Below are positions 7,511 to 60,489 of a DNA stretch of 62,336 bases, piece by piece. How positions within the stretch are numbered: the first letter of the stretch is position 1; each line of letters starts with the position of its first letter. The stretch lies in IMG/VR virus record IMGVR_UViG_3300010334_002856, positions 1-62,336 of that record; one strand, 5' to 3'. A program made the position numbers and the translations under genes. This DNA comes from a virus. A model generated the notes under the pieces. That model had not been told where the DNA came from and did not search any database. It worked only from the letters and a program-made list of their open reading frames with translations.

Positions 7511-7792
7511 ATGAATGATTCTAAAAAAGAAGTTATGCTTATTCTTCAAGAAGAATGTGCAGAAGTAACACAAGCAATTTCAAAATGTTTACGCTTTGGA
7601 ATAGATGGTGAATATAATGGTGCTACCAATCGACAACGATTGACTGAAGAAATTGGTGATCTTATAGCAATGATTGAACTATGCTACGATAATGGTATTG
7701 TAGATTATCTACAAGTCAAAGAAGCGCAACATAGAAAATTTGATAAACTTAGGGAATGGTCTACAATATATGAGCAAGCTGAAAATATCTGA
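7511..7792 (+). CDS. mazG: MazG-like nucleotide pyrophosphohydrolase
   Basis: 93-residue single-domain MazG-like protein. It has the all-alpha NTP pyrophosphohydrolase motif: EECAEVTQAISK (the EExxE half) and EEIGDLIAMIEL (ExxD half) that bind Mg2+. Phage MazG proteins hydrolyse dNTPs or (p)ppGpp-related nucleotides; the substrate here cannot be told. It overlaps queE by 23 bases and follows a perfect sigma70 promoter. Confidence 0.85.
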   Translation: MNDSKKEVMLILQEECAEVTQAISKCLRFGIDGEYNGATNRQRLTEEIGDLIAMIELCYDNGIVDYLQVKEAQHRKFDKLREWSTIYEQAENI

Positions 7793-8612
7793 ACTATTTT
7801 ATAGTATACAGGGCGAGGGTCGTTATATGGGCGTACCCTCTGTTTTTTTGAGAACATTCGGTTGCAACTTTAAATGTGATGGCTTTGGAATGTCCAAGGG
7901 AGAAAAAAGTGTTGAGCGTTTTGCGGTGGACGGAGAAAAGTTTAAATCTTATAAATCACTACCACTTGTATCTACTGGATGTGATAGTTATGCGAGTTGG
8001 GATCCACGCTTCAAACATCTCAGTCCTGTTCTCGACACCAATACTATTGTTGATACTATTACCGATTTACTCCCTCATGGTCGTTGGAAAGATGAGCATT
8101 TGGTTATCACGGGTGGTGAACCGCTACTAGGTTGGCAACGTGCTTATCCCGATTTATTATCACATGATAATATGCGTGGCTTACAAGAAATAACATTTGA
8201 AACTAATGGTACACAGTTGTTAGAATCTGAATTAGTTACTTTCTTAAATGATTGGAAGAAGCATCGTTTCCTACATTGTCTGACGTTTAGTGTTAGTCCT
8301 AAACTAAGTATCAGTGGTGAGAGTTGGGAAGATGCTATTTGCTCTGATGTTGTTCAACAATATTACAATACTGGCTTTACTTATTTGAAGTTTGTGATAG
8401 CAACTAAAGAAGATGCAGAAGAAGCGGAACAAGCAGTAAATGAATATAGTAAAAAGGGTTTTAAAGGTCCTGTATATCTTATGCCGTGTGGCGGTGTTCC
8501 AGAACTTTATAATCTTAATAACAGAACAGTTGCAGAATTGGCAATGAAAAAAGGCTGGCGATATAGTGACAGACTACAAGTCCCATTGTTCAAAAACGAA
8601 TGGGGAACATAA
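7770..8612 (+). CDS. queE: 7-carboxy-7-deazaguanine synthase QueE-like (radical SAM)
   Basis: Radical SAM enzyme converting 6-carboxytetrahydropterin to 7-carboxy-7-deazaguanine. The 280-residue product has FYSIQGEGRYMGVPS at the start, RTFGCNFKCDGFG and then, after a ~35-residue insertion, GCDSYASWDP. The [4Fe-4S] cysteines are thus C-x3-C plus a distant Cys, as in other phage QueE forms. ITGGEPLLG is the SAM-binding GGE motif. ATG at 7770 (MSKLKISELF) is chosen over an upstream TTG. It works with folE (8900) and queD (16293). Confidence 0.92.
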   Translation: MSKLKISELFYSIQGEGRYMGVPSVFLRTFGCNFKCDGFGMSKGEKSVERFAVDGEKFKSYKSLPLVSTGCDSYASWDPRFKHLSPVLDTNTIVDTITDLLPHGRWKDEHLVITGGEPLLGWQRAYPDLLSHDNMRGLQEITFETNGTQLLESELVTFLNDWKKHRFLHCLTFSVSPKLSISGESWEDAICSDVVQQYYNTGFTYLKFVIATKEDAEEAEQAVNEYSKKGFKGPVYLMPCGGVPELYNLNNRTVAELAMKKGWRYSDRLQVPLFKNEWGT

Positions 8613-8899: not shown

Positions 8900-9580
8900 A
8901 TGTCATACAACAAAACAAAAACTGACTCTGAACTTGGTCTAAAGGTTCATGAACATCTAGTTAAAATGGGTGTTGAAACACCTTACGAAAACAATGGTAT
9001 AGATCGCAAAATAAAGATTGAACTTATAGAAAAAGCTTTTAGTACTATTATGCGAACATTGGGATTAGATTTAACAGATGATAGTCTAATAGAAACACCA
9101 AACCGTGTTGCTAAGATGTATGTTAATGAAATTTTCTGGGGATTGGACTATGATGCATTTCCTAAATGTACAACAGTAGACAATAAAATGAACTACAACG
9201 AAATGGTTGTAGAAAGAAATGTAAATGTTCAAAGCAATTGTGAGCATCATTTTGTAGTAATTGACGGTGTTGCTACTGTGGCATATGTTCCGAAAGCACG
9301 AGTTCTTGGACTCTCCAAGATCAATCGTATTGTAGAATATTTTAGTAAACGCCCGCAAATTCAAGAACGTCTAACAGAACAAATTTTTCATACACTTCAA
9401 TTTATTCTTGATACTGAGGATGTTGCTGTCATGATTGACGCCCAACATTACTGTGTCAAATCTAGAGGGGTTGAAGATACAGGTTCATCCACAGTTACAG
9501 TTCGTTTAGGTGGCGGATTTAAAACAGATCCATCAGCAAGAAATGAATTTTTAAGTATTGCAAGAATGTGCGGTAAGTGA
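8900..9580 (+). CDS. folE: GTP cyclohydrolase I, FolE
   Basis: Converts GTP to 7,8-dihydroneopterin triphosphate, the first step to 7-deazaguanines (and folate). The 226-residue protein shows the family zinc ligands: Cys in SNCEHHF (about residue 113), the adjacent His, and Cys in HYCVKSRGV (about 183). TPNRVAKMY and the final TDPSARNEFLSI are also family signatures. AAGGAAGGATTC precedes ATG 8900. The stop overlaps the next start (GTGA). Confidence 0.95.
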   Translation: MSYNKTKTDSELGLKVHEHLVKMGVETPYENNGIDRKIKIELIEKAFSTIMRTLGLDLTDDSLIETPNRVAKMYVNEIFWGLDYDAFPKCTTVDNKMNYNEMVVERNVNVQSNCEHHFVVIDGVATVAYVPKARVLGLSKINRIVEYFSKRPQIQERLTEQIFHTLQFILDTEDVAVMIDAQHYCVKSRGVEDTGSSTVTVRLGGGFKTDPSARNEFLSIARMCGK

Positions 9581-10512
9581 AAAATGTAGTTTTTTTATTT
9601 GATAATGAATGGGCACTGGGATCTATTCATTATGGTCTATTTAAATATCTTTGGAACTATGGATATAACTGTAATTTACTTCCTTGGGATAAAATATATT
9701 CTGTAGAAGAAATACGTGAATTAGATTTGTTAATAGATTTCTGGGTAACAAACCCCCACGGGCTTGCAGTATTAAAAAATTCTTTTAGTATTCCTTTAGA
9801 GCGGTGTATTGTTATAGGTCATGCTACTTTGGATTTAACTGAATATGGTTATAAATATGGTTTCGAAGATTTTAATCATGTTAAAAACTTTGGTGTTGTT
9901 AGTAATTTTTTAAAAGATTATAGTAAAACCATAGGTATACCTAGAGAACCTGTCGTTTATCCTATCGGTATTACTTATAATTCTTTTTATACTGAACCGA
10001 ATGAACAACTTCGTGTAGTAGGGTATGCCAGTGCATATCATGGGCGCAATGAATTTACTCAAGAAATGATAGACAGTCCTATATCGCAACCTAGATATAA
10101 AAAAAGAGGTTACCTTGCAAGTGAAGCTACAGAAAAAGCAGGGTTAGAATTTAGGGTAGCAAGTAATTATCATAATAGTTTTGTTACTATGCCAGGTTTT
10201 TATAAAGCAGTTGATGCTATTATTGTATCTAGTTTTGAAGAAGGTGGTAGTTTGCCTTTATTAGAAGCAGGTGCCGCAGGTAAATTAGTTATTGGTACTA
10301 GTGTCGGATGGTGGAACGATAAAGTTGGTATTTTCGGGGGCATTTCTGTACCAATCGAAGAAAACGAATTTATGGAATTTGCAGTAAATGCTTTAAAATA
10401 CTATAGGGATAGACCAGAAAAATATAGAGAAAGATGTTATAGTATAAGAGAACATGCCAAATCTTATGATTGGTCTAACTACGTGGAACAATGGGTGAAA
10501 GAATTACAATAG
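9577..10512 (+). CDS. GT-B glycosyltransferase (GT4-like)
   Basis: 311-residue protein starting at GTG 9577, overlapping the folE stop. The C-terminal half has the retaining GT-B signature: VDAIIVSSFEEGGSLPLLEAGAAGKLVIGT, where the E-x7-E motif contacts the nucleotide sugar. The N-terminal half lacks an obvious acceptor clue. Coupling to folE and closeness to the DpdA-like gene raise the possibility that it acts on modified DNA, but this is inference. Confidence 0.72.
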   Translation: MKNVVFLFDNEWALGSIHYGLFKYLWNYGYNCNLLPWDKIYSVEEIRELDLLIDFWVTNPHGLAVLKNSFSIPLERCIVIGHATLDLTEYGYKYGFEDFNHVKNFGVVSNFLKDYSKTIGIPREPVVYPIGITYNSFYTEPNEQLRVVGYASAYHGRNEFTQEMIDSPISQPRYKKRGYLASEATEKAGLEFRVASNYHNSFVTMPGFYKAVDAIIVSSFEEGGSLPLLEAGAAGKLVIGTSVGWWNDKVGIFGGISVPIEENEFMEFAVNALKYYRDRPEKYRERCYSIREHAKSYDWSNYVEQWVKELQ

Positions 10513-10520
10513 GACAATAT

Positions 10521-11030
10521 ATGACAGTTAATATTATGGTTGATTTGGAAACAATGTCAACAAGATCTAATGCTGCTATTTGCTCAATAGGTGCAGTAAA
10601 ATTTGAAGGTAAAGAAATACTAGATACTTTTTATTGTACTGTAGACATTAAGACTTGTAAAGATGCAGGAATGCATATCTCAAAAGAGACAGTCAAATGG
10701 TGGTCTGAACAAAATAAAGAAGCACTGCGAGAACTTACCCGCAATAATATCCCACTAAAACAAGCACTAGATGAATTTGAGGAATGGTTCGGACCTAAGA
10801 GCCTACCTGTATGGGGCAACGGTGCAGTCTTCGATAATACAATTTTAGCAAATGCGTATTTTAACACTGATAGAGAACCTCCATGGAAATGCTGGGATGA
10901 TCGTTGCTATCGCACAGTTAAAGCATTATTCCATTGGGTACCTGCAGATGCAAGAGAAGGAACATATCATAATGCTTTAGATGATGCTATGCATCAGACT
11001 AAACATCTAATCAAAATACTAGGTGAATAA
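10521..11030 (+). CDS. DnaQ-like 3'-5' exonuclease (DexA/RNase T-like)
   Basis: DEDDh-type exonuclease of 169 residues. It shows MVDLETM (first D and E, residues 6-10), GNGAVFDNTIL (second D, about 104) and YHNALDDAMHQT (H and last D, about 149-154). It resembles phage proteins related to T4 DexA, which degrade single-stranded DNA. ATG 10521 is preferred over 10491 because TAGGAC lies 6-8 bases upstream. Only 2 bases separate it from the next gene. Confidence 0.82.
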   Translation: MTVNIMVDLETMSTRSNAAICSIGAVKFEGKEILDTFYCTVDIKTCKDAGMHISKETVKWWSEQNKEALRELTRNNIPLKQALDEFEEWFGPKSLPVWGNGAVFDNTILANAYFNTDREPPWKCWDDRCYRTVKALFHWVPADAREGTYHNALDDAMHQTKHLIKILGE

Positions 11031-11032
11031 GT

Positions 11033-12397
11033 ATGAAAATATATAGTAAGCGTATTGCTTTTTGTATTAGTGATCAACATCTTGTACCCCACGGAGGTAT
11101 AGGGCAATTTGCTAAAGGCTTTACTGAGATGGCTAAAGACTTAAATTGGAAAGTTGATTTAATTTTAGATAAGGCGTCAAGTAACGATTTCGGTGCACTG
11201 GTTGAGTCTTTAGGTGCTAACATAATCACTTCGGATGCGCCTATGTCATATAAGAATCATACCGGCACATTTGCATTTACTGATTCTATTAATTTTGAGA
11301 AGATGCTCAATTTTAGGAATGCTATAATGAAAGCATTTAATACTAATCTATATGATATGATAGTATGTAATTCATTAGAAGCAATGCCTGCTGCTTTATC
11401 TTTTGATCTAAACAAATATATCCCAGTTGTATTCTACACACATGAGGAAAGTATGGTGTTCCGTGACACTAGAAAATTCAAAGGGGTGTTTAGTGAAAGT
11501 TGCAATGAGTTCTTTAATAATTTAATGAATCTTGAAAATTGTTATATTGGTACGCAATCTGATCGTAACGTGAATGAAATCTCAGGCAACGGGGGAATCA
11601 ATGTTAAAAAATTACCTATGCCTATGTCTGAACGAGGTCTCCTTGTAGAAAATAATGGAACAAGAGAGGGTGTACTTTATATTGGTCGTTGGGAAGATAG
11701 AAAAAATCCTGAAGCATTTCTTAAAATTATAAAAGAAACAGGATTGCCTGCAAAGATTATTACTAATAGTAATGGTAAGAAAAAATTCGAAGCTCGTCTC
11801 GCAGAATTGGAAATTACTAATTATGAAATTAAGTCAGGAGTTGTTGGTGACGAAAAAGTAGACTTTATTAAATCTGCAAAAGTTCATTTTAATCCTTCTT
11901 TACGAGAAAATTATCCATTTACATTCTTTGAATGTCTTGGTCATATGCCATGTGTTGTTATTGACAAATCGGAATGGGTAACAAACTTCGATAAAAAATA
12001 TTATATTAGAAAACCAGTATCAGAAGCAGGCGAAGCTATTAAGGCTGTTTATGGAATGAAACCTGAAAAATGGTATGGTAATGGTGCACTACAATATATT
12101 AAAGATTTGGATTCGGGCACAGCAAAGTATTGGAAAGACTTTGTAGAATCATACGCCCCTTCGGTCACATCAAAATCAGATTCTGCAAAAATAAATGAGT
12201 ATTCCGAAATTAAATATATTGACTTTGTTCGCATACTAAATAGGTCATTCTTAGCAATAGATGATGTCAAAAGTGTATTGACAAATAAGTCAAAGTATAA
12301 TATAATTTATACAGACAAAGACACATACTTGGCAAAAGATCCAAACTTCATACCATCTGAAAAAGAAACAGATACTTTAGAAAGCTTATTCGCATGA
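11033..12397 (+). CDS. GT-B glycosyltransferase with LESLF C-terminal tail
   Basis: 454-residue GT-B enzyme. N-terminal HGGIGQFAKGF is the donor-side glycine loop. Mid-protein YIGRWEDRKNPEAFLKII begins the second Rossmann domain, and NPSLRENYPFTFFECLG near residue 290 is the nucleotide-sugar E-x7-E-like motif. The last residues TDTLESLFA resemble the DNA polymerase terminus (TLEGLFG at 53747) and the next gene's terminus (SLEELFG), suggesting sliding-clamp binding. Stop and next start overlap (ATGA). T4 alpha-glucosyltransferase is a reported gp45-binding analogue, so DNA glycosylation is the leading guess. Confidence 0.72.
   Translation: MKIYSKRIAFCISDQHLVPHGGIGQFAKGFTEMAKDLNWKVDLILDKASSNDFGALVESLGANIITSDAPMSYKNHTGTFAFTDSINFEKMLNFRNAIMKAFNTNLYDMIVCNSLEAMPAALSFDLNKYIPVVFYTHEESMVFRDTRKFKGVFSESCNEFFNNLMNLENCYIGTQSDRNVNEISGNGGINVKKLPMPMSERGLLVENNGTREGVLYIGRWEDRKNPEAFLKIIKETGLPAKIITNSNGKKKFEARLAELEITNYEIKSGVVGDEKVDFIKSAKVHFNPSLRENYPFTFFECLGHMPCVVIDKSEWVTNFDKKYYIRKPVSEAGEAIKAVYGMKPEKWYGNGALQYIKDLDSGTAKYWKDFVESYAPSVTSKSDSAKINEYSEIKYIDFVRILNRSFLAIDDVKSVLTNKSKYNIIYTDKDTYLAKDPNFIPSEKETDTLESLFA
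12278..12306 (+). promoter_or_regulatory. Internal sigma70-type promoter ahead of the DpdA-like gene
   Basis: TTGACA, 17-base spacer, TATAAT, perfect hexamers, inside the 3' end of the glycosyltransferase gene and 88 bases before the next start. It could give extra early transcription of the base-exchange enzyme. AT-rich coding DNA can match by chance, so this is moderate. Confidence 0.5.
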
Positions 12398-13683
12398 GTA
12401 AAATTTTAGAATATGTAATATCAGGTCCAGCATATCTGAGACTGGGTGCAGAACAATGTAATGATCCAGAGACATTACAAATGATTATTGATCTAATTAA
12501 TAAAACTGTTCATAATAAAAATAATCACCAATTCTCATTATTGTATAATGGATTTACAGAAAAGAACTTTGGTAATAAGTTGCAGAAGTTTAGACCAGCA
12601 ATTAAAAATATTCATGCTGACTCTGGGGGATTGCAAATTATTACTCGAGGATTGCAGAATACTCCAGAGACAAGAAACAAAGTATATGAGAATCAAGGCA
12701 CATATGCTGACATTGGTATGGCGTTTGATGAGATTCCAGTAAAATCCACATCTGCTAGTGGTGTATCAGCAAAGATTGATACTAAGCGTAGATATGTTGA
12801 CATGGAAAATTTTGAGTCTTATGCGAGAGCAACAGGCAGAAATGTTAAAGATCAAATTCTAAAATTTGATTCATTAAAGAGCAAGTGTAAACCATTTGCC
12901 ATTTTGCAAGGTTCGGGTGCAGATACTTATGCTAAATGGGCAGAATGTATGTTAGCTGAAATACCTAAAGAACTACATCATCGTATCGGTGGTGTTGCCA
13001 TGGGATCAGCTGCATTGGGTATGGGACCCCTTGAAGATGTTAAACGGGCATTTTATGTTAATTCTGTTCCATTCGAAAGACCATTTCATTTGCACGTCTT
13101 AGGTGTAGGTGCACTTAAACGTATTTTACCTTATTTGCTATTTAGTCAAACTGGTCTATATGATGGTGTAGATATCTCGTATGATTCTACAACACATTCT
13201 ATGTCATTGGACAATGGATTGTTTTACTTCTCACACTGTAAGAAAAATAGCCCAGGTGATTATGGCGGTTCTTCAGTAAAAATGGGAAGAGAATATTCTA
13301 ACATTTATAGAACAGTTGTTAGTGAGATTAATTCTGTATGTGGCACAGAATATACGCCCGAGGAATATCACAAGTTAATGAATATTGCGGTTGGTCTATA
13401 TTTAGAACAAGGTGGCAAATTCATTGATGTAATGAAAGCAAGATTGGCATTTATTTTAACTAATGTGCATAACTTTACAATGGATGTTTCTGAACTAATG
13501 AATTCAAAAGAAAATTTCTTAAGATTCTGCAGAGACAAAGGTTGTGAAAACGAATACTCTACATTATTTGATGTAAAGACAAACGAGGATTTTCTTTATT
13601 GGGAAAAGCATGTCGGTAAATTTATGGATTCGGAGCCAGTCAATGCTGTGGCTCCATCTTCACTTGAGGAGTTATTTGGATGA
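12394..13683 (+). CDS. dpdA: DpdA/TGT-like 7-deazaguanine transglycosylase
   Basis: 429-residue protein related to queuine tRNA-ribosyltransferase. It has HADSGGLQIITRG near residue 74 (TGT DSGGFQ), GGVAMGSAALGMG near 198, HVLGVGALKRILPYL and GVDISYDSTTHS near 258, the expected order for catalytic and substrate-binding aspartates. In phages such proteins (DpdA) swap guanine in DNA for a 7-deazaguanine; folE, queE and queD are all nearby. The C-terminus SLEELFG resembles the DNA polymerase tail. It overlaps both neighbours by ATGA. DNA rather than tRNA as substrate is inferred. Confidence 0.82.
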   Translation: MSKILEYVISGPAYLRLGAEQCNDPETLQMIIDLINKTVHNKNNHQFSLLYNGFTEKNFGNKLQKFRPAIKNIHADSGGLQIITRGLQNTPETRNKVYENQGTYADIGMAFDEIPVKSTSASGVSAKIDTKRRYVDMENFESYARATGRNVKDQILKFDSLKSKCKPFAILQGSGADTYAKWAECMLAEIPKELHHRIGGVAMGSAALGMGPLEDVKRAFYVNSVPFERPFHLHVLGVGALKRILPYLLFSQTGLYDGVDISYDSTTHSMSLDNGLFYFSHCKKNSPGDYGGSSVKMGREYSNIYRTVVSEINSVCGTEYTPEEYHKLMNIAVGLYLEQGGKFIDVMKARLAFILTNVHNFTMDVSELMNSKENFLRFCRDKGCENEYSTLFDVKTNEDFLYWEKHVGKFMDSEPVNAVAPSSLEELFG

Positions 13684-14072
13684 GTATGTTTACACTAAAT
13701 AAAAGTTATATATGGGCAACCTTTCGTAAAGAAGGTATCCATAAGTATCCTGCAGCTGCAACTGACCCCAAGTTAGCTACAGGTGATTGGTTAGATGTTT
13801 CCTTTTTAGGTACGCCTCATAGGCATATTTTTCATTTTAAAGTTGAAATGGAAGTGTTTCATGATAACAGAGATGTTGAATTTATTCAGGCAAAGCGTAT
13901 TATGGAACGATGGTATTCTGATGGCACATTACAATTAGATTATAAATCATGCGAAATGATGGCAAGAGAATTGTATGCCAGATGTCTTGAGCAATGGCCT
14001 TCAAGATGTTATACTATAGAAGTATCAGAAGATGGTGAGAATGGATGCAGACTTGTTTTTGAGGAGAGATAA
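13680..14072 (+). CDS. QueD/T-fold-like protein (divergent)
   Basis: 130 residues, translationally coupled to the DpdA-like gene (ATGA) and to the next glycosyltransferase (TAATG). The layout resembles QueD: MFTLNKSY start, PHRHIFHFKVEMEVF in place of the HGHxYxxxV zinc-histidine strand, then DVEFIQAKRI (QueD xVxDFxxLK), and ending EVSEDGENGC. The catalytic cysteine is not obvious. It may process or bind a pterin/deazapurine intermediate. A true queD exists at 16293, so this is a second, diverged member; low-to-moderate certainty. Confidence 0.5.
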   Translation: MSMFTLNKSYIWATFRKEGIHKYPAAATDPKLATGDWLDVSFLGTPHRHIFHFKVEMEVFHDNRDVEFIQAKRIMERWYSDGTLQLDYKSCEMMARELYARCLEQWPSRCYTIEVSEDGENGCRLVFEER

Positions 14073-15241
14073 TGAGTAAGTTATATTATATGGGTTTAGA
14101 GCCTTATGAAGGTCGATATACTTTACAACTTCAGCAATGGAGTGAAGCGGCATTTAAACGCAGAGGAATTGATTATGAAATTATACACGGTGATATTCTT
14201 GACGATTCCAAATCTATCGTAACAGGTCAGGTGCTTGATGCACATGGTCGTAGTTATTATTCTTTAACGCAGATGGCTAATCTTGTTAAAAAAATGAAGT
14301 CGGGTGAGATTACCTGGAACGATACTATTTTCTTTGAGGATATGTTTACGCCCGGCATTGAAGCAATTCCCTACATTGTGGATCAATTACCTTGGGAATA
14401 TCAACCTGAGATTTATGTTCGTTGTCTTGCACAGACAATAGACCCAGATGATTTCCTTCATGTATGGGATATGCAGGAATGGATGGGGCATTATGAAAAA
14501 ATGTGTGATACTTGGGTAACAGGTATTCTTGCATCGAATGAAGAGATGGTTGCACATATGAGGATCGCAGGTTGGAAAGCACCAATCTATAATATCTCCG
14601 GATTAGCATTTGATAAAGATGAAGTACAAAGTCGTATTGCTGAAATTAAACCATTCATTACTCGTAAAAAGCGAGTGGTGTTTGCTGCTAGATTCGATCA
14701 GGAAAAGCAACCAGGATTCTTTATGGATCTAGTTGAGGACTATGGTAAGTATAATCGAGATGTAGAGTTTGCTGTTTTATCGGGCGGTCCATTACGTAGT
14801 AACGATCAAAAGTATTTAGATCGCGCAAGGGAATTAGAAAAAACTTCTAATTTTAAGATCTATGAAAATCTTAAAAAGAATGAATATTATGAATTGTTGG
14901 CAGATTCTCGAGTATTGTTTAATTGCGCTTTACAAGATTGGGTAAGTAACACAGCATCAGAAGCAGATGCACTTGGTACAAATTGTTTGTATCCCGCCTA
15001 TAGATCTTTCCCTGAGTCATTTGCTAATGACGCGGAATGTTTATATATTCCTTGGTCTATGGAAGATGTTAAAAATAAACTAGATAATTTATTAGTTAAA
15101 CCAAGAAAGAAAATGGGACAATTATCTAATTGGACTACTGGAACTATTGACAGATGTATTGACATTATGATTGATGGATCTGAGAAATGGTATCGTAATA
15201 CTAAGGATTATAGAAACAATGTCTCAGAATCAAAATACTAA
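14072..15241 (+). CDS. GT-B glycosyltransferase
   Basis: 389 residues. The second half carries RVVFAARFDQEKQPGFFMDLV (start of the donor-binding domain) and VLFNCALQDWVSNTASEADALGT, matching GT4-like enzymes where the E of SEADA contacts the sugar nucleotide. The first half has an unusual acidic/aromatic stretch (FFEDMFTPGIEAIPY) perhaps for acceptor binding. It is coupled to the QueD-like gene upstream and overlaps galE by 23 bases, which could supply UDP-galactose or UDP-glucose. Acceptor unproven. Confidence 0.7.
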   Translation: MSKLYYMGLEPYEGRYTLQLQQWSEAAFKRRGIDYEIIHGDILDDSKSIVTGQVLDAHGRSYYSLTQMANLVKKMKSGEITWNDTIFFEDMFTPGIEAIPYIVDQLPWEYQPEIYVRCLAQTIDPDDFLHVWDMQEWMGHYEKMCDTWVTGILASNEEMVAHMRIAGWKAPIYNISGLAFDKDEVQSRIAEIKPFITRKKRVVFAARFDQEKQPGFFMDLVEDYGKYNRDVEFAVLSGGPLRSNDQKYLDRARELEKTSNFKIYENLKKNEYYELLADSRVLFNCALQDWVSNTASEADALGTNCLYPAYRSFPESFANDAECLYIPWSMEDVKNKLDNLLVKPRKKMGQLSNWTTGTIDRCIDIMIDGSEKWYRNTKDYRNNVSESKY

Positions 15242-16253
15242 TACTGTTATAGTAACAGGTGCTGCCGGCTATATCGGTGGCGCTACATGTATTGCATTAA
15301 AAGAACATGGTTATAAAGTAGTGGGTATTGACAAAAGAAAACTACACAAGCATATGGAATATTATGTAGATCAATTTGTCAATGAATGTTTTACACACCC
15401 GTTTTCATTGGAGCACCTTGAGCGCAACCCTGTTGCTGTTATACATTGTGCAGGAACAAGTTTAGTAGGACCGAGTGTAGAGAATCCTTCAGAATATTTT
15501 AATAATAATGTGGCAAAAACATTGAAGTATTTAGATTACATACGTCGGTGGGCACCTAATATTAAGTTTGTTTTTAGTAGCAGTGCTGCAGTTTATGGTG
15601 AGCCGATAGGTATGATATTGACTGAGGCTTCTGAAACTAAACCAATATCTCCATATGGTGAATCTAAACTAATGACAGAAATGATGTTAGAGAGATTTAA
15701 AGTTGCATACGGATTGAAGTATGTGTCATATAGATATTTTAATGCATGTGGCGCAGTTGAAGGTGGGGTACATGGGCAAGAACCCGACGCCACACATATA
15801 TTTGCGAAATTGTTTGAAGCCGCTTTACAAGGTAATGATTTTACTATTAATGGCGCAGACTTTCTTACACGAGATGGTACTTGTGTTAGAGATTATATCC
15901 ATGTAACAGATATAGCCGATGCTCATGTTTTAGCTATTGACAAAGATATTGAAGGGATATATAATATAGGAACATTAAAGGGTCATTCGAATCTTGAGGT
16001 GTTTACTGCAGTTGAAGATTTTTTAATCAATAACGAAGCAATAAACGACCGAATTATATGTCATATAGATGTACGAAGAAAAGGCGATCCGGCAACACTA
16101 ATTGCTAGTGCAGAAAAATTATTAGCAGATACTGGGTGGAAACCTAAAAGAAAATTAAATGATATTATAGAAACGTTATACGATTGGTATAACTCTAAAT
16201 ATTATCATAGATTAAAAAAGCGGTCTTTAAATGACATTCACCCCGCTATATAA
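15219..16253 (+). CDS. galE: UDP-glucose 4-epimerase GalE-like
   Basis: 344-residue extended short-chain dehydrogenase. The NAD-binding GAAGYIGG is at residues 12-19, SSSAAVYG carries the catalytic Ser/Thr strand, YGESK (about 146) is the Tyr-x3-Lys pair, and RYFNACGA plus RDYIHVTDIADAH are typical GalE motifs. ATG 15219 (MSQNQNTN) is chosen over an upstream in-frame ATG because of AAGGATTATAG just upstream. It overlaps the preceding glycosyltransferase, so it likely feeds a sugar donor to it. Confidence 0.9.
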   Translation: MSQNQNTNTVIVTGAAGYIGGATCIALKEHGYKVVGIDKRKLHKHMEYYVDQFVNECFTHPFSLEHLERNPVAVIHCAGTSLVGPSVENPSEYFNNNVAKTLKYLDYIRRWAPNIKFVFSSSAAVYGEPIGMILTEASETKPISPYGESKLMTEMMLERFKVAYGLKYVSYRYFNACGAVEGGVHGQEPDATHIFAKLFEAALQGNDFTINGADFLTRDGTCVRDYIHVTDIADAHVLAIDKDIEGIYNIGTLKGHSNLEVFTAVEDFLINNEAINDRIICHIDVRRKGDPATLIASAEKLLADTGWKPKRKLNDIIETLYDWYNSKYYHRLKKRSLNDIHPAI

Positions 16254-16292
16254 ATTCTGCATGTCATCAAACTTACTCATTAGAGGCAAGAG

Positions 16293-16742
16293 ATGGCTAA
16301 ATATTTCTCAACAAAACATTACGGGCACAACATTGGTTTAAGTGCTGTATTTAGACAACCTAACGCAGATCATAGTCATTGCCATTTGCTGCATGGTTAT
16401 AGTTTAGCATTTACTTTTACATTTGGATGCGATGCCCTAGACAACAAAAATTGGGCAGTAGATTTTGGTGGTCTTAAACCACTCAAGGCATGGTTGGAAG
16501 ATCACTTTGATCATAAGCTGGCCCTGGATAAAGCAGATCCACATCTGGCCAAGTTCCAGGAACTTGAAGCCTTGGACTTGGCAGAGATCCGCATCTTTGA
16601 TGGGGTGGGTGTAGAGAAGTTTGCTGAACATGCATTTAACTTTGCGGATCAGTTAATCAGAAATGCATCTAATAATCGTTGTTATTGTGTTAAAGTTGAA
16701 TGTGCAGAACATGGTGCTAACTCAGCTATTTACGAAGGCTAA
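16293..16742 (+). CDS. queD: 6-carboxy-tetrahydropterin synthase QueD
   Basis: 149-residue T-fold enzyme converting dihydroneopterin triphosphate to 6-carboxytetrahydropterin, the step between FolE and QueE. It shows SHCHLLHGYSLAF: the catalytic Cys (about residue 30) and the zinc histidines, then WAVDFGGLKPLKAWL and FDHKLAL, all family hallmarks, and a C-terminal VECAEHGANSA with the substrate Glu. A good AGAGGCAAGAG precedes ATG 16293. With queE and folE it completes the route to 7-carboxy-7-deazaguanine. Confidence 0.92.
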   Translation: MAKYFSTKHYGHNIGLSAVFRQPNADHSHCHLLHGYSLAFTFTFGCDALDNKNWAVDFGGLKPLKAWLEDHFDHKLALDKADPHLAKFQELEALDLAEIRIFDGVGVEKFAEHAFNFADQLIRNASNNRCYCVKVECAEHGANSAIYEG

Positions 16743-24463: not shown

Positions 24464-25477
24464 ATGGACAACAAAGTTGCGTTGATTACAGGCATAACTG
24501 GGCAAGACGGTTCTTATCTTGCAGAATTATTATTATCTAAGGGCTACGAAGTACATGGTATTATCCGTCGTAGCTCTTCAATGAACACAGGTCGCATCGA
24601 CCACATCTACAATAATCCAAAATTACATCTTCACTATGGTGACGTAACAGATTCCTTATCCATTATGAATGTCTTGAAGAAACACAATCCTTCGGAAATT
24701 TATAATCTAGCTGCACAAAGTCATGTTAAGGTTTCATTTGAAACTCCTGAATATACTGCAACTGTTGATGCGTTAGGTACCCTTAAAATATTAGAATCAG
24801 TTAGAATTTTAAATATGGATAGGACTTGTAAAATATATCAAGCATCTACCTCAGAAATGTTTGGATTAGTTCAGGAAACTCCACAAAAAGAAACAACTCC
24901 GTTTTATCCTAGATCGCCATATGGTGTAGCAAAATTATATGCATACTGGATCACAAAGAATTATCGTGAATCATATGATATGTTTTGTTGTTCTGGTATT
25001 TTATTTAATCACGAATCTCCTCGCCGTGGATTTAATTTTGTCACAAAGAAGGTTGTAGATGGTTTAGAAGCAATTAGTGCAGGTCGCCAAGAGTGTTTGT
25101 ATATGGGCAATCTGAATGCTTTACGAGATTGGGGGCATGCTAAGGATTATGTTAAGGCAATGTGGTTAATGTTACAACAGGATAAACCAGAAGACTTTGT
25201 CATTGCTACAGGTAAACAATATTCGGTTAAGGACTTTATTGAGAAATGTGCCCCATATTTCTATCTAAAAATTCGTTGGGAAGGCGAAGGATTAAATGAA
25301 GTAGGCATTAATGTTAATACGGGTAAAGTTATAATTAGAGTTGATCCTAAATATTTTAGACCAGCTGAAGTTGAGACTTTGCTCGGTGATCCCTCAAAAG
25401 CTAAGAGCGTTTTAGGTTGGGAGCCAGAATATACTTTCGATGCTCTGGTAGAGGATATGTGTATTAATTTTGGTTAA
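24464..25477 (+). CDS. gmd: GDP-mannose 4,6-dehydratase
   Basis: 337-residue SDR converting GDP-mannose to GDP-4-keto-6-deoxymannose. It has [15 protein letters not shown] (NADP site, residues 8-22), [31 protein letters not shown] and YGVAK (catalytic Tyr/Lys near 152-156), [12 protein letters not shown] and the final [14 protein letters not shown]: the full Gmd pattern. It is the first gene of the cluster, behind a late promoter, followed by fcl. Confidence 0.95.
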
Positions 25478-25484
25478 GGATTTT

Positions 25485-26420
25485 ATGGAAAAAAATAGTA
25501 AAATTTATGTAGCAGGCCATAAAGGATTAGTTGGATCTGCGATTGTTAGAAAATTAAAAGAAGAAGGTTATACAAATCTAATTCTTAGGACAAAGGCAGA
25601 ATTAGATCTTCGAGATCAAAGGGCTGTCAAGAATTTTTTTAGTATAGAGTTACCTGAGTATGTAATTTTAAGTGCTGCTAAAGTTGGTGGCATTAGTTGG
25701 AATTCAACTAACCCCGCAGAATTCATATATGATAATTTAATTATTCAAACAAATGTTATAGATGCGGCATATAGAAGTGGCGCTAAAAAATTATTGTTTT
25801 TAGGTTCTGCTTGTATCTATCCAAAAATTACTCCTCAACCTATCAAAGAAGAATATCTTCTTACAGCTTCTCTTGAGCCATCGAATGAGGGATATGCTCT
25901 TGCTAAAATTGCTGGCTTAAGAATGTGCGAATACTACAGACGTCAGTATGGGTTTAATGCTATTAGTTGTATGCCCGCGAATCTATATGGTGTTAATGAT
26001 AATTTTATTCCAGAACATGGGCACGTTATTCCTGGCATTATTACTAAGATGCATAATGCGATAAAGAATGGTGAGGATAGTATTGAATGTTGGGGTGACG
26101 GAACTCCAACGCGAGAGTTTTTATATGTAGATGATTTGGCAGATGCTTGCTTTTGGTTAATGCAAAATTATAATGAAAAAGAATTTGTTAATATCGGAAG
26201 TGATGAAGAATTAACTATCAAAGAACTTGTAACCAAATTAACAAAAGCTTTTGGATTTACAGGCAAGGTTGTTTGGAATAAGGATAAACCCAACGGACAA
26301 CCAAGACGCAAACTAGATAACACTAAATTAAAAAAATTGGGATGGAAATCTAAAACAAGTTTTGACGACGGGTTAAAACTTACTATTGATTGGTATAAAA
26401 AAGATCGAGGAATGATATGA
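25485..26420 (+). CDS. fcl: GDP-L-fucose synthase
   Basis: 311-residue epimerase-reductase that completes GDP-L-fucose. It has YVAGHKGLVGSAIV (NADP site), SAAKVGGI, LGSACIYPK, YALAKIAG (Tyr/Lys near 136) and RMCEYYRRQYGFN with MPANLYG, diagnostic for the family. ATG 25485 has TAAGGATTTT upstream; an in-frame TTG at 25470 is rejected. It directly follows gmd, and a GT10 fucosyltransferase lies 1.5 kb downstream. Confidence 0.95.
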   Translation: MEKNSKIYVAGHKGLVGSAIVRKLKEEGYTNLILRTKAELDLRDQRAVKNFFSIELPEYVILSAAKVGGISWNSTNPAEFIYDNLIIQTNVIDAAYRSGAKKLLFLGSACIYPKITPQPIKEEYLLTASLEPSNEGYALAKIAGLRMCEYYRRQYGFNAISCMPANLYGVNDNFIPEHGHVIPGIITKMHNAIKNGEDSIECWGDGTPTREFLYVDDLADACFWLMQNYNEKEFVNIGSDEELTIKELVTKLTKAFGFTGKVVWNKDKPNGQPRRKLDNTKLKKLGWKSKTSFDDGLKLTIDWYKKDRGMI

Positions 26421-27172
26421 GCACACTAGGCAATTTTATGGTAATGGATTCTGCATATGGTAAATTTATTTTGCCTAGAAATTGCACACCCGGTCACCCA
26501 ACACCTAATCCGGCATCTGTAATGCTGATGACAGGCAAAACACACATAGAGCAAGAATTAAATAATATCTTCGCAATCATAAACACTTTGCCCGAAAATG
26601 CTATTATTGTGGACGGCGGAGCTAATATGGGATTCTTTACTATTCCTGTGGCACAAATGGTAAAGGCAAAAAATAGCAAAGTTGTTTCTTTTGAACCACA
26701 GAAACAATTATTCTATGCGTTGGGCGGAACCATTGCGTTAAATGAATTACCAAATGTCTTTTTATATAATTTAGGAATAGGTAGTGAACAAACTACTGCT
26801 GAAGTATCTCCTGTAGACTATAGTTTAAATACTGATTATGGTATGGTTACTATTAAAGCAACAGACTCAGCTGGGTCGTTAGATTATAGTTCTGTAGATG
26901 TTATTCCTTTAGACTATATGGAACTTCCTAGATTAGACTTTTTAAAATTAGACATTGAAGGTTTTGAATGTGAAGCATTACGTGGAGCAATTAATACTAT
27001 AGAAGCACATAGGCCATGGATTTGGATTGAGTATAATATGGCAGGCGAGGATAATATTAAAAAAGAATTGTCTAGTCTAACGGATTATGAATATCACATT
27101 GTGGATTGGCAAAATATGCTTTGTGCGCCTTCAGAAAAAATTAAAGCATCGGGTATCTTAGGTAACCGATGA
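26417..27172 (+). CDS. FkbM-type methyltransferase
   Basis: 251-residue SAM-dependent O-methyltransferase. Motif I is VDGGANMGFFT (about 70), followed by SFEPQKQ, and the FkbM hallmark LDIEGFECEAL near 175. Such enzymes methylate sugar hydroxyls in surface glycans. ATGA overlap with both fcl and the next gene. Two further FkbM genes (37958, 40582) are in the cluster. Confidence 0.8.
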   Translation: MSTLGNFMVMDSAYGKFILPRNCTPGHPTPNPASVMLMTGKTHIEQELNNIFAIINTLPENAIIVDGGANMGFFTIPVAQMVKAKNSKVVSFEPQKQLFYALGGTIALNELPNVFLYNLGIGSEQTTAEVSPVDYSLNTDYGMVTIKATDSAGSLDYSSVDVIPLDYMELPRLDFLKLDIEGFECEALRGAINTIEAHRPWIWIEYNMAGEDNIKKELSSLTDYEYHIVDWQNMLCAPSEKIKASGILGNR

Positions 27173-27951
27173 ACTCTTTAGTATTACACACTCATACTGG
27201 GTTAGGTGACCATATCATTACTAATGGCATGGTTCATTCGTTTACCGAAGACTATGACAAAGTTTATGTGCCTCATATAAAGATGTTTAGTGAATCTATA
27301 AATGCTCTATATAAAGGATTTGATAAAGTAGAACCTGTTTCATTGCCAGATATAGACATCAATCTTAATGGTAGGCATCTAATACAAAAGATAGTGGATG
27401 ATACTAAATCTGAGTATATAGGTGTCGGTGATCCTTTATTATACTATCCAGGAAGAATAGTAATGAATTCTAAGGGTGAGTTAGAGATGAGAAACATTGC
27501 TACAAACTTTGATCGTCAATTCTATGAATTGGCTGGCATGCATTTCTCTATTAGATATACTCATGCTAAAATTCCCGAATCCACAGAAAGATCCTTAGAA
27601 ATTTATAAGCAATTAACTAATGAAGAAGATTTTATTCTAGTACATGATAATAGTAGTATTAGTTCTCAGTTACCGTTAGCTTTAGATCAAGTATCTAAAC
27701 ACAAAAATCTTAAAGTAGTTAAAATACAAATGGGTGTAACTAATAATGTTTTTGATTTTGTCGACTTAATAAAGCGAGCAAAAGAGATACACGCAGTAGG
27801 AAGTTTTTTCCAATGCATTGTAGATAGTATGGTTGATCAAACATCTGCAGATCTATTCTTTCATAATATTATGATAAAACATGATGCACAAATAAATTGT
27901 GAATGGAATGATAGACGATGGATACAAATTGAGTATAGAAATAAGTATTGA
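27169..27951 (+). CDS. Putative GT-B sugar transferase, LGLGDHI paralogue 1
   Basis: 260 residues starting SLVLHTHTGLGDHIITNGMV, a glycine-rich N-terminal loop typical of GT-B enzymes, with a second part DFVDLIKRAKEIHAVGSFFQCIVDSM that fits the donor-binding half (compare GT9 and fucosyltransferase folds). A clear paralogue is at 35868. Located beside the GT10 gene. Sugar and acceptor unknown. Confidence 0.5.
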   Translation: MNSLVLHTHTGLGDHIITNGMVHSFTEDYDKVYVPHIKMFSESINALYKGFDKVEPVSLPDIDINLNGRHLIQKIVDDTKSEYIGVGDPLLYYPGRIVMNSKGELEMRNIATNFDRQFYELAGMHFSIRYTHAKIPESTERSLEIYKQLTNEEDFILVHDNSSISSQLPLALDQVSKHKNLKVVKIQMGVTNNVFDFVDLIKRAKEIHAVGSFFQCIVDSMVDQTSADLFFHNIMIKHDAQINCEWNDRRWIQIEYRNKY

Positions 27952-27960
27952 GGAAATTAA

Positions 27961-28839
27961 ATGAGTAAAAAAATAAAATTAGGTTTTGCTGACACGCACG
28001 AGCATATATCACAATTCTTCCATAGTCTATTGGCAAATAGATTTGATGTGGAAATAGATAATGAAAATCCTGATTATTTGATCTTCGGTGATAGTAATTT
28101 TGGAACAAATAATAAAAAATTTAGTAAATCGGATTGTGTTAAGATTTTCTATACAGGTGAGAATCAAAGACCAGACAATTATGACTGTCATTATGCAATT
28201 ACTTTTGATCATAACTATAGTAATTGGCATTTCCGCTTACCCTTGTTCGTAGTTTATATGTGGGCATTAGATGCTATTCACAACACTGGGCATAAGTATT
28301 ATCACATTCTCGGCGAGCATAATCCAATTCTAAAAACAGATTTTTGTTCTTTTGTTGTTAGCAATCCAGGTTGCGAAGAGCGTAATGAATTTTTTAAAGA
28401 ATTGAATAAGATAAAGAAGGTAGATAGCGGCGGAGGCTTATACAATAATATAGGTAGCAAACTAGACGGGGAACTTGCTAAGATTAATTTCTTGACCAAG
28501 CGTAAATTTAATATATGTTTTGAGTCTGGTTCTTATCCCGGTTATGCCACAGAAAAAATTCTCCATGCTTTTTATGCTAGAACTATTCCTATCTATTGGG
28601 GCAGCCCTACAATAGCATCAGACTTTAATATTCAATCTTTTATTAATGTACATGATTTTAGTAATCATGAAGAAGTAATTGATTTTGTTATGAGATTAGA
28701 TTCAGATGAGGATCTATATAACAGAGTAATATCAGCGCCTCCTTTAGCAGCAGGCATCCCTAGAGATTATATGATCTTGAACAATTTTTTAAATTGGTTT
28801 GAGTCTGTAGTTTATAACAAACAAGACATGAGAGAATAA
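27961..28839 (+). CDS. GT10-like alpha-1,3/4-fucosyltransferase
   Basis: 292 residues. The C-terminal segment FNICFESGSYPGYATEK followed by ILHAFYARTIPIYWGSP and INVHDF (about 180-225) matches the alpha-1,3-fucosyltransferase motif (FENSxxxxYxTEKxxxAxxxxxPIxxG). Donor should be GDP-fucose, which gmd and fcl upstream would make. Short spacer (9 bases) after the preceding gene; the stop overlaps the next start. Retained key residues suggest an active enzyme. Confidence 0.83.
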   Translation: MSKKIKLGFADTHEHISQFFHSLLANRFDVEIDNENPDYLIFGDSNFGTNNKKFSKSDCVKIFYTGENQRPDNYDCHYAITFDHNYSNWHFRLPLFVVYMWALDAIHNTGHKYYHILGEHNPILKTDFCSFVVSNPGCEERNEFFKELNKIKKVDSGGGLYNNIGSKLDGELAKINFLTKRKFNICFESGSYPGYATEKILHAFYARTIPIYWGSPTIASDFNIQSFINVHDFSNHEEVIDFVMRLDSDEDLYNRVISAPPLAAGIPRDYMILNNFLNWFESVVYNKQDMRE

Positions 28840-29570
28840 TGAAAATACTTACATTTATATTTAATTGGCGCGGACAATACGACAAAACAATTAAAAAGAT
28901 AGATCAACTCAGAGGGATGGGAGTTGAACCAATCGTAATTAATAGTGATGATGACCATAACGATCCTGATTGGCATAACATAGGCGAGGATAGTTATTTT
29001 ACTGCTCAGTTTATGAAAGCTTTGGAAATCTTTAAGAAAGAAAACGGTGACGTATTATTTCATATTCAGGGTGATGCATCATACGATAATTGGAAACAAT
29101 TATATGCTGATGCAGAAAAATATTTTGAAACTTATGAATGGGGAATCTATGCACCCAATGTGGATTATACTTGGTATAATTCTTCCAGAGTTGATCTACA
29201 ATTTAATATAGATGAACCCAATCTTAAAATGGTAGCAGATACAGATTGTACTTGTTGGTTTATCCACAAAGACATTATTAATATGGCAGATGAAAAAGGA
29301 ATTGATTTCTCTCCGTATAAGATGGGTTGGAGTTTTGATATAATTTATTCTGCTCTTAGCTTTTTAAGTCAAAGACCAGTTCTCCGAGATTATTCACATA
29401 CTATTGACCATCCGCCAGGAACCAATTATAATAAGGATCAAGGTGAAAGAGAGATGGCAGAATTGTATGAGTCCTTAGAAGAAGACGTCAAGGAAGCATT
29501 CTATTTCATTAAAACAGACATTACTAATCTATCAAAATACTATGAAGATCAGCTATCAACAAACGAATGA
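28839..29570 (+). CDS. Putative GT-A glycosyltransferase
   Basis: 243 residues beginning MKILTFIFNWRGQ, with VINSDDDHND, DVLFHIQGDASYD (possible metal-binding acidic motif about 80) and CTCWFIHKDI plus MGWSFDIIYSA near the C-terminus, the layout of inverting GT-A (GT2-like) enzymes. Overlaps neighbours on both sides. Substrate unknown. Confidence 0.5.
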   Translation: MKILTFIFNWRGQYDKTIKKIDQLRGMGVEPIVINSDDDHNDPDWHNIGEDSYFTAQFMKALEIFKKENGDVLFHIQGDASYDNWKQLYADAEKYFETYEWGIYAPNVDYTWYNSSRVDLQFNIDEPNLKMVADTDCTCWFIHKDIINMADEKGIDFSPYKMGWSFDIIYSALSFLSQRPVLRDYSHTIDHPPGTNYNKDQGEREMAELYESLEEDVKEAFYFIKTDITNLSKYYEDQLSTNE

Positions 29571-30462
29571 TATAATTAGGGATACCTTAATTAAAGGTGA
29601 TCCTGCATCTATTCTTCGTATTGACAATACAGCCAAGTATATTATAGAATGTATCTTAAGTAATAAACAACCTTCTTCTGAATTTTGTAATGATTCCACG
29701 GTAGTTCAAGCAGGAGTATTTCCTACAAGTGTAGAATATCTATTGGATAGCATTTATCCTGCAACTATTGACTTAATGAAACAATCTGATTTATTGGGAT
29801 TTGTTGATGTAGAAAATTCTATGCACAACGATCCTAGTAAACAATTCATATATGATACCTTTGCAGGCAGACCAATTTATTCTGGGCATTCTATACTTGT
29901 TATGGATCCGGGGGCAATTCTAGGTCATGCATCTCATGTGCCAGGTTGTATTGATCCTTGGACAAAATACCTCAAGGGTAAAAAAGTATTAGTAATATCC
30001 ACGCACGCAGAAACAATTAAGTATCAATGGAATCGTATAAAACAAATATGGGGCAAGGATAAAGATATAATTGCACCTTTTGAACTAGCAGGTGTTATAC
30101 GAAGTCCATTTCATCCTATGATGGATGATAGACAATATCCCGGTTGTAATAGTTGGTCGGATACTGTCGGTTATATTATGGAAGAAATGTCTAAATATGA
30201 CTATGATGTTTTACTTTCTGGCGCAACAACATCGTCTCCTTTTTATGTAGACTATGCTAAACAACAAGGTAAAATAGGTATTCAAACGGGTGGAGCTATA
30301 CAAATATTCTTTGGTATACTAGGATATAGATGGACAAAGGTTGATGGTTACAAAGGTTGGTATAATATGTACAATGACCATTGGATGTATCCTATGCCCA
30401 TAGATAGTGCGCAGAAGCGCGAGGATTATAAATTTTTAGAAACTAATTTTGCATACTGGTAA
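29542..30462 (+). CDS. Putative GT-D-like glycosyltransferase
   Basis: 306 residues. N-terminal ASILRIDNTAKYIIE resembles the R-(F/I)-G/D-(D/N)-x-E region of GT-D (DUF1792-like) enzymes. The later pattern KKVLVISTHAETI, DYDVLLSGATTSSPFYVDYA and GKIGIQTGGAIQIFFG fits the family's glycine-rich strands. Overlaps the preceding gene by 29 bases. The assignment is by pattern resemblance only. Confidence 0.45.
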   Translation: MKISYQQTNDIIRDTLIKGDPASILRIDNTAKYIIECILSNKQPSSEFCNDSTVVQAGVFPTSVEYLLDSIYPATIDLMKQSDLLGFVDVENSMHNDPSKQFIYDTFAGRPIYSGHSILVMDPGAILGHASHVPGCIDPWTKYLKGKKVLVISTHAETIKYQWNRIKQIWGKDKDIIAPFELAGVIRSPFHPMMDDRQYPGCNSWSDTVGYIMEEMSKYDYDVLLSGATTSSPFYVDYAKQQGKIGIQTGGAIQIFFGILGYRWTKVDGYKGWYNMYNDHWMYPMPIDSAQKREDYKFLETNFAYW

Positions 30463-30463
30463 T

Positions 30464-31786: not shown

Positions 31787-31793
31787 GAAAAAT

Positions 31794-35246: not shown

Positions 35247-35881
35247 ACAAATACTTCACATTTAGTATTTGGGGCGATAATCCTAAATATCTTCAGGGCG
35301 CAATTAGAAATGCAGAACTTGCAGAAGAAATATTTCCTGAATGGAAATGCGTATTTTACTACGATGCAACCGTACCAAAAGAAACAATAGATAAACTATC
35401 TGCATTTAAAAATACAATAGTTAAAGAAGTAACAGATGATAGTTTTGGTGCATTCTGGAGATTTGAAATGATGTTCAATAATCCAGGTGTGATATTATCT
35501 AGGGACACAGATTCAAGATTAAGTTTAAGAGAAAAAGAACTTATTGACAACTGGCTCGAATCCGAATATAATTATATGGTTATTCGAGACCACGACGCAC
35601 ACTACGAATTTCCTATATTAGCAGGTATGTGGGGTAAGAAGAATATAATAATGGATAGTACACTTAAGGATGCTATGCAAGAATATATTTCCGTTAAACA
35701 ATATTTGGTAGATCAATTTTATTTGAGAGATAAAGTTTGGCCAAACATAATGAACGATACTGCAATATATGGAGTTAAAGAAGTAGATTGGATGAGAGAG
35801 ACATATGATTTTGAAAATAACAATTTCATAGGTCAAACATACACAGAAAACGATGAGCCTGTATACGATGGAAAAATTTAA
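35240..35881 (+). CDS. Putative GT-A glycosyltransferase
   Basis: 213 residues starting MVDKYFTFSIWGD. SFGAFWRFEMMF and VILSRDTDSRLSLREK (DTD metal motif about 95) fit a small GT-A enzyme acting with a nucleotide sugar. ATG 35240 overlaps the dehydratase stop by 7 bases; an upstream TTG is not used. The product ends in the overlap with the next gene. Confidence 0.55.
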   Translation: MVDKYFTFSIWGDNPKYLQGAIRNAELAEEIFPEWKCVFYYDATVPKETIDKLSAFKNTIVKEVTDDSFGAFWRFEMMFNNPGVILSRDTDSRLSLREKELIDNWLESEYNYMVIRDHDAHYEFPILAGMWGKKNIIMDSTLKDAMQEYISVKQYLVDQFYLRDKVWPNIMNDTAIYGVKEVDWMRETYDFENNNFIGQTYTENDEPVYDGKI

Positions 35882-41223: not shown

Positions 41224-41225
41224 CT

Positions 41226-60486: not shown

Positions 60487-60489
60487 AAT

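Follow-up and report, generated by a model that had tools for sequence, protein, structure and literature searches.

The base-exchange enzyme DpdA2 was defined on phage nt-1, whose DNA holds dPreQ0 (PMC6884629, available sections), and in phage 6E351A 15% of the deoxyguanosine (dG) is replaced by a species whose mass fits dPreQ1 (PMC12028318, available sections). Systems of the nt-1 type, with dPreQ0, dG+ and dPreQ1 as their products, combine a DpdA2-type enzyme with FolE, QueE-type genes and QueC in a T4-like phage. FolE, QueD and QueE convert GTP to 7-carboxy-7-deazaguanine (CDG). The DNA of Cellulophaga phage phiST is said to hold dDG and dCDG, and Cui and colleagues reportedly proposed, in 2023, a decarboxylase named DpdL. 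Sugar reaches phage DNA by another route in T4, where DNA glucosyltransferases act on hydroxymethylcytosine, and it reaches a 7-deazaguanine nucleoside in the galactosyl- and mannosyl-queuosine of animal tRNA (PMC12518689, available sections). Here we consider a gene cassette on a viral DNA stretch of 62,336 nucleotides (IMG/VR record IMGVR_UViG_3300010334_002856; the window below is this whole stretch), in which a DpdA2-type enzyme stands beside a QueD-like protein (QDL) and a glycosyltransferase (GT3). From what its genes encode, from the predicted folds of two of the proteins, from conserved catalytic residues and from co-occurrence in related loci, it is reasonably likely that the cassette equips the phage's own DNA with a glycosylated 7-deazaguanine.

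The 62 kb window carries T4-type genes, and a 222 kb record represents the same phage (99.99% identity in a comparison of two 17 kb stretches). Downstream of QueE and FolE, the cassette has the order GT1, exonuclease, GT2, a gene like that of tRNA-guanine transglycosylase (TGT), QDL, GT3, GalE and QueD:

7740-8612, + strand: QueE, 7-carboxy-7-deazaguanine synthase (phrog_2076, 3.6e-53; five NCBIfam QueE models at 2e-10 to 8e-15, all below cut-off)
8900-9580, + strand: FolE, GTP cyclohydrolase I (PF01227, 5e-62; NCBIfam FolE above cut-off)
9577-10512, + strand: GT1, glycosyltransferase-like protein (PF13692, 1.9e-5)
10491-11030, + strand: DEDDh-type 3'-5' exonuclease (PF16473, 7.6e-47)
11033-12397, + strand: GT2, second glycosyltransferase-like protein (PF00534, 6e-4)
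12394-13683, + strand: DpdA2-type guanine transglycosylase, TGT-like (phrog_10773, 1.5e-94; KVP40, 31.2%, 2e-47)
13680-14072, + strand: QDL, QueD-superfamily protein (phrog_17812, 2.3e-30; hhalign to phage QueD, 94.9%)
14072-15241, + strand: GT3, core glycosyltransferase (PF00534, 1.3e-5; GT-B predicted structure)
15219-16253, + strand: GalE, UDP-glucose 4-epimerase (NCBIfam TIGR01179, 273.6 bits, above the cut-off of 262.3)
16293-16742, + strand: QueD, 6-carboxytetrahydropterin synthase (PF01242, 1.9e-13; phrog_2389, 6.6e-39; NCBIfam QueD, 1e-7, below cut-off)

All the named open reading frames (ORFs) within 9577-16742 proved open and in place when the 62 kb window was checked. The spacings, in nucleotides and negative where genes overlap, are FolE/GT1 -4, GT1/exonuclease -22, exonuclease/GT2 +2, GT2/TGT -4, TGT/QDL -4, QDL/GT3 -1, GT3/GalE -23 and GalE/QueD +39; FolE through GalE is thus one run held together by overlaps or short gaps, and QueD closes the block. 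A sequence-only reading made earlier had described three glycosyltransferases, a DpdA/TGT-like gene, a QueD-like gene, GalE and QueD, with the genes from 11033 to 16253 coupled and folE and queE just upstream, and the ORF positions, profile matches and measured overlaps bear it out. The exonuclease frame, which sits within the run, was absent from that reading. PADLOC gives a single match, to an exonuclease. The true start of QueE may be the in-frame ATG at 7770. The Pfam matches of GT1, GT2 and GT3 are all weak and under the Pfam cut-offs, and GT3 alone has GT-B support from a predicted structure.

Do these genes keep the same company elsewhere? For GT3, relatives on viral contigs were collected with two profiles plus a single-sequence query, for DpdA2 with two queries and for QDL with one. 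The best 80 loci were taken per query, out of 396, 403 and 192 for GT3, 379 and 379 for DpdA2 and at least 579 for QDL, and close relatives are over-represented among them. The counts are restricted to loci flanked by 5 kb or more in each direction (100/176 for GT3, 82/160 for DpdA2, 39/80 for QDL). Around GT3, neighbours were scored within 7 kb, and clusters were formed at 90% identity unless stated otherwise; the GT3 and DpdA2 sets have contigs in common and are not independent. QDL and a transglycosylase-type gene each accompany GT3 in 97 of the 100 loci, and QueC in none. After clustering, QDL is present in 57 of 60 GT3 clusters, a transglycosylase-type gene in 58, both in 55 and QueC in none, and at 50% identity the corresponding figures for 20 clusters are 19, 18 and 17 for QDL, transglycosylase-type gene and both. 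A recount of all neighbours at E 1e-20 left the numbers unchanged. Centred on DpdA2, 31 of 34 clusters contain QDL and GT3 together and the other three contain QueC (Fisher p 1.7e-4). Centred on QDL, 33 clusters include GT3 in 29, DpdA2 or a large type of transglycosylase in 29 and QueC in none; a transglycosylase-type gene is scored in 32 of the 33 when DpdA3-like neighbours, which supply three of the 32, are included. The partnership of GT3, QDL and a transglycosylase is far beyond chance.

Beyond viral contigs, a single peptide pattern run over the cellular genomes of 84,980 species picked up three contigs bearing GT3; each also has QDL, FolE and QueE, and two have a transglycosylase-type gene. 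For comparison we took a glycosyltransferase from a separate 19 kb sugar island of the same phage: neither QDL nor a transglycosylase-type gene occurs in any of its eight loci, a weak control, as only four of the eight are flanked by 5 kb in both directions and all come from one phage group. The GT3 model also touches the sugar-island enzyme, at about 1e-5, in three of these eight loci.

The transglycosylase-type genes of the 58 GT3 clusters are of three kinds: DpdA2 in 15, a large type in 10 and a small type in 33. The large type, for which there was no PHROG or NCBIfam match, aligns in hhalign with DpdA2 at 94.8% and with E. coli TGT at 11%. The small type was recognised post hoc and defined inside the same GT3 loci; hhalign scores it against E. 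coli TGT at 0.4%, against DpdA2 at 3.6% and against the large type at 26.6%, and we accept it as a transglycosylase because the two members tested match phrog_887 (queuine tRNA-ribosyltransferase) at 7e-36 and 2e-43. Counted without the small type, a transglycosylase-type gene is found in 25/60 GT3 clusters overall and in 49/49 loci of the close set. GT3s that are 69% identical adjoin DpdA2 in some loci and the large type in others, and more distant GT3s adjoin the small type. Since related GT3s adjoin different transglycosylases, the QDL-GT3 pair seems to move between exchange enzymes, following the base made by QDL and not a given enzyme.

Among named phages, GT3 and QDL occur together in BUCT-ZZ01, ACP17, X1, Phosso and Paride, QueC occurs without either in pf16, Moby and KVP40, and QDL occurs without GT3 in phiST, MA9V-3, RHph_I1_18, Bakedbeans, Ahp1, D479 and Roos. 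The cassette of Xanthomonas phage X1 has a gene with a PAPS-reductase family annotation (L004:10091-10624) between FolE and GT3. The genes next to QDL in phiST, MA9V-3, RHph_I1_18, Bakedbeans, Ahp1 and D479, which we take to be DpdA3-like, were also tried as transglycosylases, an assignment that hhalign does not support (alignment with E. coli TGT at 0.3% and 2.5%).

The comparison with the described systems can now be drawn more closely. The present cassette shares with the nt-1 type its DpdA2-type enzyme, FolE and QueE-type genes and T4-like setting, but where those systems have QueC this one has QDL and GT3 beside DpdA2, and the two sets never occur together in the 34 DpdA2 clusters. QueC (PF06508) was not found in the phage's 222 kb record, which may be incomplete. 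Fourteen GT3-bearing records, some of which may be fragments, were searched whole: twelve gave no QueC, X1 gave a match below cut-off, and G009 gave one above cut-off that is partial (56 of 210 positions). With phiST the cassette has FolE, QueD, QueE and a QDL homologue in common, and no QueC match was found in the phiST record; unlike the cassette, phiST has no GT3 in the stretch read, and its small neighbour gene is a different one, presumably DpdA3. The likeness to T4 lies in a phage GT-B enzyme and in the proposal that sugar is added to a modified DNA base after insertion, whereas here the modified base would be a guanine analogue brought in by base exchange. No thymidylate-synthase-family gene (PF00303) was found in 10 of the 14 GT3-bearing records (G001-G003, G006-G009, BUCT-ZZ01, ACP17 and X1), which leaves those records without the gene from which phages usually obtain a hydroxymethyl-pyrimidine acceptor; nor was a hydroxymethylase of that family found in the 222 kb record. 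In the animal queuosines, by contrast, the modified molecule is tRNA, not DNA, and the sugar is on the cyclopentene ring of queuosine.

By its sequence relationships the product of 12394-13683 is a DpdA2-type protein, a known family. It matches 70 phage records, including KVP40 (tblastn, 86% covered), which like nt-1 is a Schizotequatrovirus and with which the sequence comparison was made. There was no Pfam match, the match to NCBIfam TIGR00430 (8.4e-5) is far under cut-off, and a PDB sequence search with the DpdA2 profile gave nothing at E 10; the Pfam TGT model is blind to these DpdAs, matching 0 of 18 records while matching 14 of 14 controls. Profile to profile, DpdA2 aligns with E. coli TGT at 95.1% (hhalign) across the DSGGFQ, FDE, QG and GVG stretches. 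The structure predicted for the protein (pLDDT 91.4) has a TGT-type barrel fold, and it was compared with DpdA and with tRNA TGTs as had been suggested earlier. The top Foldseek match is the DNA preQ0 insertase DpdA, 7ui4, at 1.2e-7, but the superposition is loose (TM 0.39, rmsd 15.8); the best match in VIA-align is the Zymomonas mobilis TGT 5v3c (Z 21.5, rmsd 3.7, 306 aligned), and the 50 rows listed there are all tRNA TGTs, 7ui4 not being among them. D76 and D264 are kept in 33 of 33 relatives. D76 aligns to the DSGGFQ of E. coli TGT, and we infer that D264 is the nucleophile, a residue that hhalign did not pair with its E. coli counterpart. A CxCxxC motif, which we take to be the zinc motif of tRNA TGT, was not found in 12394-13683. 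Family and fold together suggest that the enzyme acts on DNA.

Two further genes recur near DpdA2. The exonuclease is found in 23 of the 34 DpdA2 clusters, and a guanine-type phosphoribosyltransferase, which could salvage the guanine freed by base exchange, in 18 of the 34.

QDL has no Pfam match; it belongs to phrog_17812 and was found in 27 phage records, phiST among them. By profile it groups with QueD, hhalign giving 94.9% to phage QueD and 83.5% to E. coli QueD, and its histidines H21, H47 and H49, kept in 13 of 13 sequences, align with the zinc ligands of QueD. In QueD we take the catalytic Cys to lie just before the HGH motif, and the His of the LDHH segment to be a second functional residue. 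No Cys occurs within five residues before the H-x-H of QDL in any of the 13 sequences, and the LDH trio is present in the ACP17 QDL only, the window's QDL reading LDY. A PDB sequence search with QDL returned PH0634 and two further rows that are chance matches by name, all three at E 0.11 to 0.53. With the catalytic Cys absent, QDL should not be a second QueD and should not make carboxytetrahydropterin; the gene for a genuine QueD lies at 16293. What, then, does it do? QDL is a candidate for the DpdL-type CDG decarboxylase and would probably decarboxylate CDG to 7-deazaguanine; what the analysis itself shows here is the shared occurrence with phiST. Since QDL is without QueD's catalytic Cys and is common to phiST, the base passed on is probably 7-deazaguanine and, contrary to what the sequence-only reading implied, probably not CDG. 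Long N-terminal extensions of QDL are seen in Vibrio phage Bakedbeans (L008:9221-10372) and Chryseobacterium phage MA9V-3 (L015:9461-10342).

The predicted structure of GT3 (pLDDT 90.5) is GT-B and GT4-like. Its best structural match is 6kih (Z 26.7, rmsd 3.6, 344 aligned), with many rows close behind; these include T4 AGT, 1xv5 (Z 22.3, rmsd 4.1, 326 aligned), and tetrahydrobiopterin glucosyltransferase, 9v0l (Z 24.2, rmsd 3.4, 315 aligned) and 5zes (Z 23.7, rmsd 3.3, 313 aligned). A PDB sequence search with the GT3 profile returned eight rows, mostly GT4-type enzymes, the best being 6tvp at 1.7e-4. All 63 relatives keep R207, K212 and E297, and at position 289 they have E (44 relatives) or D (19); for this reason the donor site of the modelled enzyme looks intact, as does the GT-B enzyme as a whole.

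The other sugar genes are less constant. GT2, for which a PDB sequence search found nothing at E 1, belongs to a family that aligns with that of GT3 at 94.3% (hhalign); it occurs in 42/44 close DpdA2 cassettes but in 14/60 GT3 clusters, and is lineage-specific. So is GalE, which we rejected as an essential part: it is present in 23/60 GT3 clusters, though in 48/49 close GT3 loci, and its constancy in the close loci suggests UDP-glucose or UDP-galactose as the sugar donor here. GT1 was considered as a core part and rejected, being found in 3/44 close DpdA2 cassettes and having a homologue near a tail gene in S-CAM7; it is probably not part of the core system.

How might the cassette work? FolE, QueD and QueE would convert GTP to CDG, and QDL, the candidate decarboxylase, would most likely remove the carboxyl group to give 7-deazaguanine. 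The DpdA2-type enzyme, judged by its family and fold, would then exchange guanine in finished phage DNA for 7-deazaguanine, and GT3, judged by its gene partners, would add a hexose from a UDP-sugar to the deazaguanine. GalE would tune the pool of UDP-sugars, and in this lineage a second sugar might come from GT2. The expected effect is that restriction enzymes, and perhaps CRISPR nucleases too, would be blocked. Much of this had been proposed from the sequence. The DpdA-like enzyme proposed there stands, with a TGT fold and two conserved Asp, once the family is corrected to the known DpdA2; insertion followed by glycosylation gains from a DpdA-type enzyme with a dedicated GT3 and from the same partners elsewhere, and loses CDG as the probable base and, probably, GT1. 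Likewise, of three glycosyltransferases and GalE acting as one glycosylation operon, GT3 stands, GT1 probably lies outside and GT2 and GalE belong to certain lineages.

Several observations weigh against glycosylated 7-deazaguanine as the product. The decarboxylase role of QDL leans on the role reportedly proposed for DpdL. Many small-molecule GT4-type enzymes match GT3 about equally, T4 AGT being merely one of them, and the same phage has the separate 19 kb sugar island. Thymidylate-synthase-family genes are present in Phosso, Paride, G004 and G005, and no transglycosylase was recognised in the stretch of Phosso that was read. Three loci (L189, L191 and L258) have QDL and GT3 without a recognised transglycosylase, and three others (L237, L240 and L245) have GT3 and a small transglycosylase without QDL, FolE or QueE; the latter are perhaps a related system drawing its base from elsewhere. 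Finally, 7-deazaguanine offers no hydroxyl for an ordinary O-glycoside, and therefore the acceptor would have to be C7, N2 or O6. Because QDL should leave C7 bare and nucleophilic, pointing into the major groove, we tentatively propose C7: GT3 would join a hexose there to give 7-C-glycosyl-7-deazaguanine, through a QDL-GT3 module common to three kinds of base-exchange enzyme. This specific proposal is a doubtful one. To our knowledge, a carbon-linked sugar on a DNA base would be the first.

Might the sugar go elsewhere? The DNA could hold plain dDG or dCDG while GT3 and GalE glycosylate a virion protein or a host or phage polysaccharide, the two activities being linked by co-regulation only. 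The sugar island, with its own glycosyltransferases and epimerases, and the GT1 homologue that adjoins a tail gene in S-CAM7 speak for such a division of labour, which we nevertheless consider unlikely: QDL accompanies GT3 in 57 of 60 clusters and a transglycosylase-type gene in 58, and the sugar-island enzyme, weak control though it is, has neither partner in all eight of its loci. One could also imagine that the substrate is tRNA, with a glycosylated queuosine-like base in the phage's own Asp, Asn and Tyr tRNAs. The window does encode tRNA-Asp GTC, tRNA-Asn GTT and tRNA-Tyr GTA, sugar-bearing queuosine is known from animal tRNA (PMC12518689), and the tRNA TGTs fill the listed VIA rows to the exclusion of 7ui4. 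Yet the TGT-like protein lacks the CxCxxC motif that we take to mark tRNA TGT, and its top Foldseek match, loosely superposed, is the DNA insertase. The phages of the related DpdA2 carry the base in DNA (PMC6884629, PMC12028318), as far as the available sections of these papers go; on these grounds we judge a tRNA substrate improbable.

A different chemistry would have GT3 form an acyl glycoside on the carboxyl of CDG, or glycosylate the base while it is still free, ahead of insertion, QDL then being no decarboxylase. CDG is the product of QueE and has an oxygen nucleophile, and QueC, which would use up the carboxyl group, is near GT3 in 0/60 clusters; but CDG needs no QDL, and QDL is nevertheless in 57/60 GT3 clusters and in phages without GT3, which makes this route about as improbable as the tRNA one. 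Lastly, GT3 might glycosylate a FolE/QueD pterin, like the cyanobacterial tetrahydrobiopterin glucosyltransferase, and the cassette would be a cofactor path. That enzyme is among the structural matches of GT3 (9v0l, 5zes), level with many others, but QueE and the transglycosylase-type gene would be left unexplained, and we give the pterin path very little credence.

If glycosylated 7-deazaguanine is indeed the product, phages would possess, next to the route through hydroxymethyl-pyrimidines, another general way of coating their DNA with sugar, one that builds on guanine and base exchange. The lack of QueC in one branch of DpdA2 phages would be accounted for, and two unannotated families, phrog_17812 and that of GT3, would gain a function. 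A glycosyltransferase acting on deazaguanine in DNA could also serve as a labelling enzyme. BUCT-ZZ01, ACP17, X1, Phosso, Paride and the PA5oct group would form a cultured test set, and sugar-bearing 7-deazaguanine DNA, serving as a DNA disguise in this phage and many uncultured relatives, would be new if confirmed by nucleoside chemistry. The word deazaguanine is absent from the available sections of the papers on MIJ3, Callisto, PA5oct and Paride (PMC6892783, PMC11079468, PMC6950013, PMC10761892), while the available part of PMC13282480 names MIJ3 as one of the jumbo phages whose unusual traits include hypermodified DNA, and mentions deazaguanine predicted for some of these large phages. The open-access literature surveyed, which included the available sections of PMC12783734, PMC13329287, PMC12707154, PMC13216743 and PMC13390438, holds no report of DNA with a glycosylated deazaguanine; an earlier mention of these glycosyltransferases is possible.

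Elsewhere in the window, the sugar island spans 24464-43522 and encodes a GDP-mannose dehydratase, NAD-dependent epimerases, an alpha-1,3-fucosyltransferase-type protein, two FkbM methyltransferases, a DegT aminotransferase, a WavE-like protein and proteins that match both HAD and nucleotidyltransferase models. Inside it, at 31761-33544, a thiamine-pyrophosphate enzyme is split over two adjacent ORFs, the first with the N and middle domains and the second with the C domain. Thirteen tRNA genes lie at 60413-62111, including those with the queuosine-type anticodons Asp GTC, Asn GTT and Tyr GTA.

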